Shown here: one piece after another, positions 1,315 through 13,248 of the stretch
Layout: each line of letters begins with the position of its first letter
Position numbering within the stretch: the stretch's first letter is position 1
Origin: a virus
DNA length: 33,674 bases
Virus record (IMG/VR): IMGVR_UViG_3300047552_000153
Span: 1 to 33,674 of that record
Reading direction: 5' to 3' (one strand)
Notes under the pieces: generated by a model
The model's database searches: none
What the model saw: the letters and a program-made list of their open reading frames with translations, nothing else
What the model was told of the DNA's origin: nothing
Made by a program: the position numbers and the translations under genes

Positions 1315-3381
1315 TCATCTGACAACGGGTTGCACTTGTTCACCAAGCGCAGCCTGCTGAATCGCCTCTGTGGCGGTCAGCGCCATGTTCTGATCGATCT
1401 CGCCAGTCTTGGCCAAGGTCTCGGCCGTCTTGGCTCGGGACAGCTCTGCGTCTGCCACGGTCTTGATGGTGTTGGCGCGTGCCTGGGCAGCCTTGGCCAC
1501 GGCCTCTTCGGCTGCAGCCTGCAGGAAGATGGCGTTCGGGTCTTGCTGCTGGCCCTTGGCTTCTGCCTCGGCCATGAGTGCCTCGATCTCCTGCTCGGTC
1601 GGCTTGACCACGCCCATGCGGATCAGGCGCTGGCGGAAGAAGTCGCGCACCTCACTGATGCCTTCGCCTTCCATGTTCATCATGGCCATAGCACCGAGCA
1701 CCTGCAGGGTTTCTGGGTCTTGCGTGATCTGCATCATGCCGGTCAGGGCGCGAACGGTCGCGGCACGCTTGGAGCTGCTGGACGGGCCGACCTCGACGTT
1801 CACATCGAACTTGGCCATGCTCAGATCGTTGGCCATCTTCACCTCGCCAGTCTCTTGGTCGATGGTTGGCTGCATCAGCGTGACGGTTCCAGTGCTCTCG
1901 TCCTCGTTGATGATCTTCATCGTGCGGCCTTCTTCGATGTAGATGTCCTTGGCCATCGACAGCCAGACCTCACCGCAGCGCTTCATGGCCTTGGCAAAGT
2001 TGCTCATGTAGATAAAGGTCTGCATGTCCAGGCGCTGCTGGATCATCTCCACGGCTTTGCCGCTGATGTTCGACACCAGCTTGTCCGCGCCTTGCGGGTT
2101 GCCCAGAATGTCCTGCATGTCCTGCTCGGTCACCTGCAGCAGGGCTGCCATGGCCGGAGGCACGTTCGGGGCGCGGGTGTACGCCACGGGGCCGCTGACG
2201 GTCTGGCTGCCATCCGGGCCGGTGATCGGGTTGATCAGCAGGTAAGGGTAGTCCTTGAGGTTGTCCTCTGCCCACATGACCTGGTGGCCAGCGACCTGCT
2301 CAGGCGTGAGGATGGGCTTCTCGACGCTGGACAGGGCGCTGATCTCGCCCAGCTTGGACAGCTGCATGTTCTTCAGGCGCTGCGCATCCTTGGCCAGGCG
2401 CACATGGCCCATGCAGCGCTCGACGTTGTCCACGAACCAGCGCTTGCCATAGACCGGGATGATCGGGATGCACTTGCCTGCGATGTAGCCAGCGTCCTCA
2501 AGGATGCGGCCACCGGACATGATGTACTTGTGCACCTTGCGCGACTTGATCTTGCGCTGGCGCACCTCTTGGCTGCCAATGGCGGCCAGGGTGTTTTCCA
2601 GCTCTGGATCGTCTTCGAAGTCCTTGGAGCGGTATCGTTCCTCTGTGCCGTCGATGTTGCGGAAGATGCGGATGGTCTCGGTGACGTCCTCGACCTTGTA
2701 GTATTCCGCGATGTAGACCACATCAGGCGTGCACCAGTCGAACTCGTACTGGTGGATGATCTTGGGCCAGCTGGTCGGGTCGTCGTTCCACTCTTCCTTG
2801 TAGGACTCATAGGTCATCGAGTAAATGACGTAGCAGAAACGGGCGTCGGCCTTGTCCTGGCGCTTGGCGTTCAGGTCGAAGAACACGGAGCTGTCGGCAT
2901 CAAAGATCGGCTCGATCTGGATGCGCTGGCGCTCGTTGTCCTCGTCCTCGTCATCCTCGTATGAGGTGCGCAGACGCCAGGCACCAAAGCCACCACCGAC
3001 AGCTTCCTCGAAGGCGTTGTCGTAGGCTTCATCGGCCACGCTGTCCTGCTCATCGGCGCGATACAGGCCATCACAGGTCTCGGCCAGCTTGTCGGCCTTG
3101 CTGCCGTCCTTGGCCACAAAGTCCACGGTGATGCGGTTGTTGCGGTATTCGTTGATGATGCGAATGACCGACAGCATGATCTTATTGACCTCGAACTTCG
3201 GCTTGTTCTCGTAGATGTCCCACAGTGGGCCTTCCCACTGCGCACCGGACAAGCTGTAGAAGCGTCGGTCTTGAAGGCATTGCAGCCTTTCGTCCCGCAG
3301 CGCTGACTGAACGTTGTCGAACTGCGCGAGCGCTTCGGCGTGTACGTTAGCCAGTCGCTGATCTCTTGAAATGCGTGCCAT
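1315..3381 (-). CDS. Portal protein, P22 gp1-like
   Basis: The 688-residue product (P22 portal: 725) is the dodecameric ring at the single packaging vertex, through which DNA enters and leaves. The N-terminal third fits the P22 portal family: a helical start (ISRDQRLANVHAEALAQFDN), then WEGPLWDIYENKPKFEVNKI and a stretch RNNRITVDFVAKDG. A negatively charged patch (YEDDEDEDNE) lies near residue 145. The C-terminal 120 residues are rich in A, Q, E and K and probably form the helical barrel typical of P22-type portals. The ATG at 3381 has GAGGG (3389-3393) upstream. It sits 27 bp after the large terminase stop and 78 bp before the scaffold start, the normal packaging order. Confidence 0.95.
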   Translation of the reverse strand: MARISRDQRLANVHAEALAQFDNVQSALRDERLQCLQDRRFYSLSGAQWEGPLWDIYENKPKFEVNKIMLSVIRIINEYRNNRITVDFVAKDGSKADKLAETCDGLYRADEQDSVADEAYDNAFEEAVGGGFGAWRLRTSYEDDEDEDNERQRIQIEPIFDADSSVFFDLNAKRQDKADARFCYVIYSMTYESYKEEWNDDPTSWPKIIHQYEFDWCTPDVVYIAEYYKVEDVTETIRIFRNIDGTEERYRSKDFEDDPELENTLAAIGSQEVRQRKIKSRKVHKYIMSGGRILEDAGYIAGKCIPIIPVYGKRWFVDNVERCMGHVRLAKDAQRLKNMQLSKLGEISALSSVEKPILTPEQVAGHQVMWAEDNLKDYPYLLINPITGPDGSQTVSGPVAYTRAPNVPPAMAALLQVTEQDMQDILGNPQGADKLVSNISGKAVEMIQQRLDMQTFIYMSNFAKAMKRCGEVWLSMAKDIYIEEGRTMKIINEDESTGTVTLMQPTIDQETGEVKMANDLSMAKFDVNVEVGPSSSSKRAATVRALTGMMQITQDPETLQVLGAMAMMNMEGEGISEVRDFFRQRLIRMGVVKPTEQEIEALMAEAEAKGQQQDPNAIFLQAAAEEAVAKAAQARANTIKTVADAELSRAKTAETLAKTGEIDQNMALTATEAIQQAALGEQVQPVVR

Positions 3382-10291: not shown

Positions 10292-10477
10292 ATGCAAGAC
10301 GACTTTTACATCACGGTGAACGACGGCAACGCCGTCATCATCAGCCCTAACGAGGAATACATCTCGATGGGCGTGCACATCCGAGGCGGCAGCGTTCGGA
10401 TCGACATGACACCCCAGCAGGCCCAGGAACTGATCGAGGCCATCGCAAACAGCATGAAAACCAAGGAGACAGCATGA
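10292..10477 (+). CDS. Hypothetical protein (61 aa), first gene of rightward operon
   Basis: The ATG at 10292 follows an AAAGG ribosome site with about eight bases of spacing; the open frame further upstream runs through the operator region and is rejected. The small acidic protein has beta-like stretches (FYITVNDGNAVIISPNEEY, then MGVHIRGGSVRIDM) and ends in a helix (PQQAQELIEAIANSM). Its place ahead of the recombination genes and behind the control region suggests an early protein. No motif is recognised. Its stop overlaps the ERF gene start (ATGA). Confidence 0.75.
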   Translation: MQDDFYITVNDGNAVIISPNEEYISMGVHIRGGSVRIDMTPQQAQELIEAIANSMKTKETA

Positions 10478-11052
10478 AAGAGATCGCAGCAGCATTGGTC
10501 AAGGCCCAGCGAGCATTCGGGCCTGCGCTCAAGACAAAGACCAATCCACACCTGAAGGCCAAGTATGCAGACCTGGGTGACTGCATTGAGGCCGTCATCG
10601 ATGGGCTGAACAACAACGGCATCGCCTTGATGCAGCAAACCCATGAATGTGAATCTGGAATCCTGGTAGAGACGATCTTCATTCACGAATCTGGCGAGGT
10701 GTTTTCAGCAGGCAAACTGCATGTGCCTGCGGTCAAGCATGACGCCCAGGGATACGGCAGTGCCCTGACCTATGCACGCCGCTACAGCCTGATGGCCGCC
10801 TGCGGTATTGCGCCAGAGGACGACGACGGCCAAGCCACCAGCAAGAAAACACCAAAGCAGCTGGACGGTTATCCAGAATACGAAGCAGAGACGCTGCCAG
10901 CCATGCGTGAGGCTGCATTGCAAGGAAACGAGGCACTTGTCTCAGCATTCCAGGCCCTGCCCAAGTCGGCGCACAAGGCCGCGTTCTGGCAAGCCCAAGG
11001 CCCAGCCCTCAAGAAAGCGGCAAAAGCCGCTGACGAGCAGGAGGCAGCATGA
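10474..11052 (+). CDS. erf: ERF-family single-strand annealing protein
   Basis: The 192-residue product starts MKEIAAALVKAQRAFGPALK and continues with KYADLGDCIEAVIDGLNNNG and GYGSALTYARRYSLMAACGI, the signature core of the ERF superfamily (P22 Erf, and related phage recombinases). It anneals complementary single strands during phage recombination and genome circularisation. A linker rich in D, K and Q (about residues 118-140) joins it to a C-terminal helical part. It is followed immediately by the exonuclease and SSB, forming a two-component recombination system. Start and stop both overlap neighbours as ATGA. Confidence 0.95.
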   Translation: MKEIAAALVKAQRAFGPALKTKTNPHLKAKYADLGDCIEAVIDGLNNNGIALMQQTHECESGILVETIFIHESGEVFSAGKLHVPAVKHDAQGYGSALTYARRYSLMAACGIAPEDDDGQATSKKTPKQLDGYPEYEAETLPAMREAALQGNEALVSAFQALPKSAHKAAFWQAQGPALKKAAKAADEQEAA

Positions 11053-11675
11053 GAATCATCACAGCCGACCAAGGGACAGAGGAATGGAAGCAGGCGCGTG
11101 TTGGCGTGCCGTCCGGCTCCAAGTTCAGCGACATCATGGCCAAGGGTGGTGGAGCAACCCGCGCCACCTATCTGACGGCCTTGGCCTTGGAGCGCATCAC
11201 CGGAGTGCGTGACGAGTTCAAGACCACGTTTGCAATGGAGCAGGGCACAGAGCGCGAGCCTTTGGCCAGGCTGGCGTATGAAGCCAGCACAGGCCAGCTG
11301 GTCGAGGAAATTGGATTCTGCATGCACGACACTCTGCAGGTCGGTGTCAGCCCTGACGGTCTTGTCGGCAATAACGGCATGACCGAATACAAGTGCCCGA
11401 TGCCAAAGACGCACCTGGAGTATCTACGCCTGGAGGCAGGCAAGTGCCCGACAGCCTACCGCTGGCAGGTGCAAGGCCAGCTTTGGATTGCCGAGCGCGA
11501 GTGGTGCGACTTCGTGTCCTACAACCCAGACTTTCCAGAAAACGCGCAGATGGTCATTCGCCGGGTGGTGCGTGACGACAAGGCCATCAAGGAGCTGGAG
11601 ACCGAGGTGGTGAAGTTCCTGGAAGACATCGAGCGCGAGGTCGAGTTCATCAAATCTTACAAGGACGCATCATGA
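11049..11675 (+). CDS. YqaJ/lambda-type 5'-3' exonuclease
   Basis: The 208-residue protein has the PD-(D/E)XK fold of the lambda exonuclease/YqaJ family: the N-terminal QGTEEWKQARVGVPSGSKFS, the GTEREPLARLAYE helix, the catalytic GVSPDGLV and EYKCP strand pair (aspartate about 100, E and K about 114-116), and YRWQVQGQLWIAE with the conserved glutamines. It degrades one strand of double-stranded ends to make single strands for the ERF annealing protein next to it. Length is close to that of lambda Exo (226). Its stop overlaps the next start. Confidence 0.94.
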   Translation: MRIITADQGTEEWKQARVGVPSGSKFSDIMAKGGGATRATYLTALALERITGVRDEFKTTFAMEQGTEREPLARLAYEASTGQLVEEIGFCMHDTLQVGVSPDGLVGNNGMTEYKCPMPKTHLEYLRLEAGKCPTAYRWQVQGQLWIAEREWCDFVSYNPDFPENAQMVIRRVVRDDKAIKELETEVVKFLEDIEREVEFIKSYKDAS

Positions 11676-11959
11676 ACGGCCGCGACCTTCGAGACGCAGG
11701 CATCGCTCGCGTGTCCATTGGCCGCGAGGAATGGATCGCCAAGGCACGCAGCACAGCGGTGGCAATCGCGCAGCGTGCTGGCCAGGTGACCATCAACGAC
11801 GTTCGGAAGTTCATCGAGCTGCCGGACGACTACCACCACAACACTTGGGGCGCGGTTCTGAGGGGTGACGCCTTCGAGCCGATCGGATTCTGTCAAGCAA
11901 CCCACCCATCAGCCCACGCTCGGGTCGTTCGGGTCTACAAACTGAAGGAGCAAGCATGA
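11672..11959 (+). CDS. Hypothetical protein, possible winged-helix (95 aa)
   Basis: This small protein lies between exonuclease and SSB (MNGRDLRDAGIARVSIGREE). The central stretch GQVTINDVRKFIELPDDYHH, then NTWGAVLRGDAFEPIG, looks like a small winged-helix/beta-hairpin domain that is common among phage accessory proteins. The basic C-terminus ends RVVRVYKLKEQA. Its position between DNA-processing genes suggests binding to DNA or to one of the neighbours. Overlapping ATGA junctions occur at both ends. Function is unknown. Confidence 0.75.
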   Translation: MNGRDLRDAGIARVSIGREEWIAKARSTAVAIAQRAGQVTINDVRKFIELPDDYHHNTWGAVLRGDAFEPIGFCQATHPSAHARVVRVYKLKEQA

Positions 11960-12372
11960 AAGCAAATGGACTGGCACGCATCGGCAAAGACGCCGAGGTG
12001 CGATACACACCAGGTGGTGCAGCGGTGGCCAACGTCTCGCTGGCGTTCACCTATGGCAAGAAAGGCGAAGATGGCAAGCGGCCAACGCAGTGGGTCGATG
12101 CCTCGCTGTGGGGACAGCGTGTGGAATCGCTCGCGCCGTACCTGACCAAAGGCAAGCAGATCGTGGCCTACCTGGAGGACGTGCACATCCAGACCTACAC
12201 CAAAGGCGACGGCACGCAGGCCAGCAAGATGGCAGCACGCATCGCAGACCTGGAGTTTGTGGCCGGTGGTGAGCAGGCAGAAAGCCAACCGAGACAGCAG
12301 CCAAAGCCACAGGCAGCACCACAGTCGCAAGGCTCAGGCTTTGACGACATGGACGACGATATTCCCTTTTGA
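11956..12372 (+). CDS. ssb: Single-stranded DNA-binding protein
   Basis: The 138-residue protein has the OB-fold opening MKANGLARIGKDAEVRYTPG, then VANVSLAFTYGKK, WVDASLWGQRVESLAPYL and GKQIVAYLEDVHIQTY. This is the usual SSB layout in about 105 residues, followed by a Q/P-rich disordered linker and an acidic tip DDMDDDIPF. The DDDIPF end is the peptide by which bacterial SSB recruits host partner enzymes. It coats single strands made by the exonuclease. It is the third member of the recombination module. Confidence 0.96.
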   Translation: MKANGLARIGKDAEVRYTPGGAAVANVSLAFTYGKKGEDGKRPTQWVDASLWGQRVESLAPYLTKGKQIVAYLEDVHIQTYTKGDGTQASKMAARIADLEFVAGGEQAESQPRQQPKPQAAPQSQGSGFDDMDDDIPF

Positions 12373-12386
12373 CAACTGGAGCAACC

Positions 12387-12614
12387 ATGAGCACACGCAT
12401 TTACCTGGTCACCGACGTGGAGACCAACAAACACCGCCTGATTCGCGCAGGCAACCAGGCCCAAGCCATACGGCACGCAGCGCAGACGCGCTTCGACATC
12501 GAGGTGTCTGGCCAGGATGATCTGGTGAGCCTGCTGACCAGTGGCATCCCGGTCGAGCTGGCCGGTGGGCCTGCGACTGCAGATATGTTTGAAGACGTAA
12601 AGGAGACAGCATGA
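12387..12614 (+). CDS. Conserved hypothetical phage protein (75 aa)
   Basis: The ATG at 12387 (CTGGAGC ribosome site upstream) gives MSTRIYLVTDVETNKHRLIR followed by AGNQAQAIRHAAQTRFDIEV and SGQDDLVSLLTSGIPVE. This beta-strand then helix arrangement with a QDDLV motif recurs in many phage accessory regions without known function. An in-frame TTG six codons upstream is possible but lacks spacing. The short 14-bp gap after SSB is one of the few gaps in this operon. No catalytic residues stand out. Confidence 0.75.
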   Translation: MSTRIYLVTDVETNKHRLIRAGNQAQAIRHAAQTRFDIEVSGQDDLVSLLTSGIPVELAGGPATADMFEDVKETA

Positions 12615-13099
12615 AACGCTACATTGGAACCAAACTGATCAACGCCAAGCCAATGACACGGCAGGCCTACAACGACTTCCGAGGGTGGACTTTGCCAGCC
12701 GACGAAAACGGGGCAGACGAAGGATATCTTGTTGAATACGTAGATGGCGGAAAAGGCAACACCGATCATTACGCCGGTTATGTGAGCTGGTCGCCTGCTG
12801 ACGTTTTCGACCGCGCATACCGCCCATGTGAAGGCATGACGTTTGGCCAAGCCATCGAGGCAATGAAGGCTGGCCAGAAGGTCGCTCGCTCTGGCTGGAA
12901 TGGCAAAGGGATGTTCGCATATTACGTCCCAGCCAACAGCTACCCTGTGCAAACAGGTGCAGCCAAGAGCCACTTCGGAGAAGGCGCGATGGTTCCATAC
13001 AACGCTTACATGGCCATCAAGAACGTCAATGAGACAGTCAGCACTTGGGTTCCAAGCGTGAATGATGTGCTGTCCGATGACTGGAGGATTGTCGAATGA
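12611..13099 (+). CDS. DUF2829/Tad2-like protein with extra N-terminal domain (candidate anti-Thoeris)
   Basis: The 162-residue product has two parts. Residues 76-162 (MTFGQAIEAMKAGQKVARSG, WNGKGMFAYYVPANSY, then VPYNAYMAIKNVNETVSTW and VLSDDWRIVE) match DUF2829, the Tad2-like domain. Tad2 proteins of several phages bind and sequester the cyclic ADP-ribose-type signal of the bacterial Thoeris defence. Residues 1-75 form a separate domain (IGTKLINAKPMTRQAYNDFR, DEGYLVEYVDGG, YVSWSPADVFDRAY), a module often found alone or fused in phages. Signal binding here is inferred from the fold; the pocket residues cannot be verified by eye. It sits among small accessory genes, where counter-defence genes often lie. 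Confidence 0.85.
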   Translation: MKRYIGTKLINAKPMTRQAYNDFRGWTLPADENGADEGYLVEYVDGGKGNTDHYAGYVSWSPADVFDRAYRPCEGMTFGQAIEAMKAGQKVARSGWNGKGMFAYYVPANSYPVQTGAAKSHFGEGAMVPYNAYMAIKNVNETVSTWVPSVNDVLSDDWRIVE

Positions 13100-13248
13100 C
13101 CAGCAAGAACAAGACCCAATACGTGACCGTTCGCCTTCCGGACGAGATCATGGCCAAGCTGAAGGCCGAGGCCGAGCGCAACACGCGCAGCCTGTCCGCC
13201 CAGGTGCTGCACTACATCCGGCTGGAGCTGGACAAGGTGAAATCATGA
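13096..13248 (+). CDS. Arc-type ribbon-helix-helix protein (50 aa)
   Basis: The ATG at 13096 overlaps the previous stop (ATGA). The protein begins MTSKNKTQYVTVRLPDEIMA and ends RSLSAQVLHYIRLELDKVKS. It shows the classic Arc/MetJ plan: a strand (QYVTVRLP), helix one (DEIMAKLKAEAERN), a turn, and helix two (SLSAQVLHYIRLEL). Arc-like dimers bind operator DNA through the strand; here the DNA-facing side chains would be Q, V, V and R. P22 also carries an Arc protein, but in its immunity region, whereas this one lies inside a recombination/accessory operon and may regulate its own or late transcription. Confidence 0.85.
   Translation: MTSKNKTQYVTVRLPDEIMAKLKAEAERNTRSLSAQVLHYIRLELDKVKS

Follow-up and report, generated by a model that had tools for sequence, protein, structure and literature searches.

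The locus raises the question of what a phage protein does in which a Tad2-like domain stands behind a second domain, and which part each of the two plays. The window, i.e. the whole stretch of 33,674 bases that was analysed and that forms one virus record, holds one Tad2 match in total. It lies in a gene on the plus strand that runs from ATG to TGA and encodes 162 aa according to the ORF listing and its translation. This gene, referred to here as the fusion gene, and its surroundings contain the following features:

10474..11052 (+), ERF single-strand annealing recombinase (PF04404, E 1e-20)
11049..11675 (+), YqaJ-type viral exonuclease (PF09588, E 6e-24)
11956..12372 (+), single-strand DNA-binding protein, SSB (PF00436, E 2e-12)
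12369..12614 (+), 81-aa ORF whose 3' end overlaps the fusion gene (ORF listing)
12600..12605 (+), ribosome-binding site AAGGAG, 5 nt 5' of the ATG (read from the sequence)
12611..13099 (+), N-domain-Tad2 fusion gene (ORF; PHROG 872 over residues 1-162, E 3e-64)
12611..12829 (+), N-terminal domain, residues 1-73, beta-alpha-beta-beta-alpha
12836..13096 (+), Tad2-like domain PF11195, residues 76-162 (Pfam, AlphaFold, structure matches)
12893..12913 (+), beta1-beta2 loop GWNGKGM, residues 95-101, at the 5' border of the swapped segment
12915..13067 (+), pocket segment, about residues 102-152, exchanged in L033, a syntenic relative
13046..13096 (+), conserved tail W146-x-x-S149-x-x-D152-x-L-x-x-D157-W with the beta4-alpha3 loop, alpha3 and beta5
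13096..13248 (+), 50-aa ribbon-helix-helix ORF overlapping the stop codon of the fusion gene (weak RHH matches)

The fusion gene shares a few bases with both neighbours in an operon-like manner and is preceded, in this order, by the genes for ERF and YqaJ, a 95-aa ORF, SSB and the 81-aa ORF, for which neither Pfam nor PADLOC returned a match. The preliminary description had seen the gene in a row of small accessory genes; small ORFs do adjoin it, but the upstream part is a recombination operon and does not consist only of anonymous genes. The ribbon-helix-helix protein (13096-13248) may be a regulator of the operon. On the strand opposite the fusion gene one frame is open, but nothing supports its coding. 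The fusion protein had zero matches in NCBIfam and PADLOC, and a search of isolated phages with the window DNA found no close relatives.

Residues 76-162 had been assigned to DUF2829/Tad2 from the letters alone, and both profile search and structure prediction bear this out. Pfam places the Tad2-like family PF11195 at residues 76-161 over the full model (1-73 of 73) with an E-value of 2.2e-25 and 89.4 bits, above the curated cut-off of 25. The AlphaFold model of the whole protein, computed as a monomer from an alignment of 33 relatives, has a mean pLDDT of 92 and comprises two well-ordered domains, one of them with a clear Tad2 fold that matches solved Tad2 structures with a Foldseek E-value of 3e-10 and VIA Z-scores of 10-12, while unrelated structures all remained at Z < 5. 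In the family alignment G95, W96, N97, G98, W146, S149 and D152 are invariant. The beta1-beta2 loop, which is a pocket element in SPO1 Tad2 (PMC12043709), the beta4-alpha3 loop and alpha3 are all present, a correspondence at the level of elements and not of ligand contacts. Family membership and fold together make the protein a candidate anti-Thoeris sponge, as had been suggested. An anti-Thoeris function is likely on these grounds; the Tad2 half would very probably be the signal sponge and, by analogy with the solved Tad2s, is probably tetrameric.

The signal itself is most likely a different one from the cyclic ADP-ribose named in the preliminary description. A sequence search of solved structures gave ModTad2 (9eib, 8v3e) as best match (E 4e-29), with AcrIIA7/HgmTad2, SPO1 Tad2 and SptTad2 far behind (E 8e-15 to 4e-11), and the model aligns with 8v3e at Z 11.4 and 55% identity in the structural alignment. 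This protein from a Myroides odoratus prophage, also called MoTad2, reportedly inhibits type II Thoeris through binding of His-ADPR (PMC13299392), and PDB entry 9eib is titled as its complex with hisADPR. The motifs KGMFAYYVP, QT, FGE and V-x-Y-x-x-Y-x-A-x-K-x-V are common to the fusion protein and MoTad2, while SPO1 Tad2, which binds gcADPR, mostly differs at these positions. His-ADPR of type II Thoeris is the predicted ligand, since the nearest solved protein was crystallised with His-ADPR and has the same type of pocket segment. MoTad2, however, has 88 aa in one domain and lacks the N-domain, and for the fusion protein the ligand is only predicted. SPO1 Tad2 (gcADPR) and HgmTad2/SptTad2 (gcADPR and/or CDNs) share the Tad2 fold, GWNGK and W-x-x-S-x-x-D with the fusion protein, but have other pocket segments and about 30-43% identity to it in structural alignments. 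Homology to AcrIIA7/HgmTad2, where AcrIIA7 is an anti-CRISPR label, is confined to the Tad2 domain.

The fusion as such has precedents: PHROG 872 spans it completely (residues 1-162 on 13-172 of 172, E 3.1e-64), and the protein joins this existing phage family as a new member. IMG/VR holds at least 599 relatives, of which the best 80 were kept, and isolated phages contribute 378 matching records, with 90 reaching a query coverage of 80% or more. Escherichia phage N4 gp49 has the same N-domain-Tad2 layout along its whole length, but its pocket segment is of class L162, unlike that of the fusion protein. Neither a reported function for PHROG 872 or N4 gp49 nor experimental work on any N-domain-Tad2 fusion was found in the literature searched.

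Comparison of relatives revealed that within this family the pocket of Tad2 is swapped next to a constant N-domain. Between the window and L033, positions 12013-12914 are homologous (87%), 12915-13067 are unrelated, and homology resumes from 13068 (93%). Syntenic relatives repeat this pattern: high similarity extends through the flanking genes and the N-domain into Tad2 as far as GWNGK, is lost in an unrelated stretch and then returns. L159 and L161 are 98.6% identical over the N-domain and the head of Tad2 and 89% over the tail, against 34% (aa) for the pocket; their 300-base flanks agree at 95% and 92%. Among 77 syntenic pairs, defined by at least 75% identity in both 300-base flanks and not independent, as they come from only 40 genes, the pocket fell below 65% nucleotide identity in 27, which is the level of shuffled sequences (mean 51, maximum 60). 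The N-domain did so in none of the 77, its minimum being 76%. With pocket classes drawn at an arbitrary cut-off of 45%, one N-domain cluster (23 genes) holds 6 of them and another (22 genes) 5; some members resemble MoTad2 (up to 51%), some SPO1 Tad2 (46-50%) and some neither.

Assembly chimeras as the source of these swaps can be rejected. The N-part occurs in 43 of 5,426 complete E. coli genomes, where at least the first 252 nt are common at 94-99% identity, but at least 80% of the gene is common in only 8 of the 43, and most match the first 252 nt only. Pocket swapping is thus also seen in complete genomes and is therefore not an assembly artefact. An ERF-type recombinase encoded nearby could help such exchanges. 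The most natural reading of the sequences is that pocket exchange would retarget the sponge to another signal, although the swapped segment could also be neutral mosaicism. Pocket exchange appears to be undescribed: the literature searched held no description of it, but included few subscription papers, and this absence is weak evidence.

What, then, is the constant partner? The extra domain of about 75 residues that had been noted ahead of Tad2 is a separate N-terminal domain of 73 aa without detectable homology to the Tad2 part. A second, decayed Tad2 that arose by tandem duplication was considered and rejected, as hhalign gave a probability of 1.3% between both parts. Modelled alone or as part of the whole protein, residues 1-73 reach high confidence, and G6, K8, G38, V41, Y43, D45, S59-W-S-P62 and Y70 are invariant in the family alignment. 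The N-terminal part matches phrog_9467, 32732 and 18865, whereas residues 1-74 had zero matches in Pfam and the N-domain had none in a sequence-profile search of the PDB. Comparison with solved structures returned no clear relative, only chromo/Tudor-like rows at Z 2.0-2.9.

The N-domain is an independent, conserved and portable module. Stand-alone forms of about 70-73 aa exist, and the N-domain therefore probably works by itself. It was also found in other predicted viral structures, including a Yersinia phage TG1 protein annotated as RyR-domain protein, and sequence checks placed it together with RyR (PF02026) in Pectobacterium phage phiA41, Yersinia phage TG1, Escherichia phage 4HA13 and L265. 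Phage Possum, which belongs to the genus of phiA41, has the N-domain alone at the equivalent position behind its primase gene. In L279 RyR is inserted into the N-domain, separating strands one and two, and gp49_66 follows; the ORF of this protein opens at 2787 on the plus strand, with the RyR match near 3001-3291 of the locus. Nearly identical N-domain-RyR proteins were noted in Schitoviridae, Straboviridae and Chaseviridae (L244, L245, L246), and their near-identity across three families suggests recent transfer. Other N-domains are joined to crAss001_48 (L140, L200, Burkholderia phage CSP3 and others), to Phage_gp49_66 (L108, crAssphage) or to both (Axy13, Ab1-TPeters), and longer chains of the types N-Tad2-crAss001_48 and N-Tad2-gp49_66-crAss001_48 occur in L013 and L046. 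The chain at L046:5998-7254 has 419 aa and four phage modules, namely N-domain, Tad2, gp49_66 and crAss001_48. Tad2 with gp49_66 or crAss001_48 is also found without the N-domain (L172, L198, L202). L172 carries another N-terminal domain before Tad2 (KYRKKPVVIEA ... GVKGEIYPCKRDIFEATY), a part without Pfam match, and a pattern of the KYRKKPVVIEA type, judged by eye, lies upstream of Tad2 in L181 and L206. No support was obtained for crAss001_48 as a variant of the Acb2/Vs.4 hairpin sponge; T4 Vs.4 as such matched its own structure, but Acb2 (p26) only weakly.

Recent work showed that phage RyR proteins degrade or sequester cADPR signals, and one homolog, from a Pectobacterium phage and not equated here with the phiA41 protein, is a sponge (PMC13232231). 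RyDEP-family members act on ADP-ribose immune signals (PMC13232231), and some RyR proteins of this family (PF02026) bear the same N-domain before or around RyR. The fusion protein has Tad2 in place of RyR and zero Pfam matches to PF02026, so that only the N-domain is common to both and a hydrolase activity is not expected. Sharing of the N-domain with RyR, gp49_66 and crAss001_48 proteins likewise appears undescribed; for the RyR proteins no mention was found in the searched literature, again weak evidence given the small number of subscription papers.

We propose that the protein is, rather probably, a phage counter-defence sponge for an ADP-ribose signal in which a constant N-domain chassis carries exchangeable signal-binding parts. 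It would be a counter-defence protein encoded in one operon together with recombination genes; its Tad2 domain, probably as a tetramer, would soak up an ADP-ribose alarm molecule made by a TIR protein, most likely His-ADPR, and with the signal removed the type II Thoeris effector of the host would stay off. The N-domain would act as constant partner with one conserved function, while the attached signal-binding part changes, either by recombination of the pocket segment at its GWNGK and W-x-x-S-x-x-D flanks or by exchange of whole domains (Tad2, RyR, gp49_66, crAss001_48). We infer the chassis role from association, and we give it most weight over a second signal pocket or a targeting domain. 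More tentatively, and with some doubt, the N-domain may be a general counter-signalling chassis that takes Tad2, RyR and perhaps gp49_66 and crAss001_48, a locus of this type being retargeted in a single recombination.

An N-domain that binds a second immune signal, giving two sponges in one chain and two blocked defences, in line with the second target or second bound nucleotide of the preliminary description, would agree with its strongly conserved polar and aromatic residues, with its stand-alone forms and with its fusion to both Tad2 and RyR, which are unrelated ADP-ribose-signal domains. We nevertheless hold this to be unlikely: the N-domain barely changes beside an exchanged Tad2 pocket, as would be expected of a constant partner more than of a pocket in an arms race, and its fold matched none of the known nucleotide-binding domains. 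Equally improbable is a chromo/SH3-like N-domain that binds protein or nucleic acid and so places the sponge at, e.g., the Thoeris enzyme, the replisome or ssDNA. A chromodomain-like arrangement is among the weak structure matches (Z 2.0-2.9), and an SSB gene lies close upstream here and in N4, but Z < 3 is no evidence of relationship and the genes adjoining the fusion gene differ between relatives.

Whether the exchanges reflect ordinary phage mosaicism, with a role of Tad2 unrelated to Thoeris such as anti-CRISPR, is a separate matter. Phage genomes are mosaic, some relatives of the fusion are annotated as 'anti-CRISPR protein', and one solved Tad2 was deposited as type II CRISPR-Cas inhibitor, in line with the AcrIIA7 label. 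However, the break points fall on conserved motifs within the Tad2 domain and reappear in at least two separate groups of N-domains, each having 5-6 pocket classes, the flanks stay alignable in pairs with a swapped pocket, and the closest solved relative is a His-ADPR complex. We therefore regard this explanation as doubtful and retain the sponge with exchangeable signal-binding parts.

Phage sponges are usually studied singly, as one protein with one ligand. This locus provides natural near-isogenic sets in which N-domain, flanks and tail are alike and the pocket segments differ, so that the rules of signal specificity in Tad2 should be readable by comparing alleles. The N-domain may further serve as a handle for finding more sponge families; gp49_66 and crAss001_48 become sponge candidates because they occur on the same putative chassis as Tad2 and RyR domains. 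As the laboratory model phage N4 has a member, the idea is directly testable.

PF13876 is called 'N4 Gp49/Sf6 gene 66', yet N4 gp49 (NC_008720; L162:2974-3456) matches the Tad2-like family and not PF13876. The label has also spread to relatives, one example being the 71-aa N-domain protein of phage Possum, which is called a capsid decoration protein.
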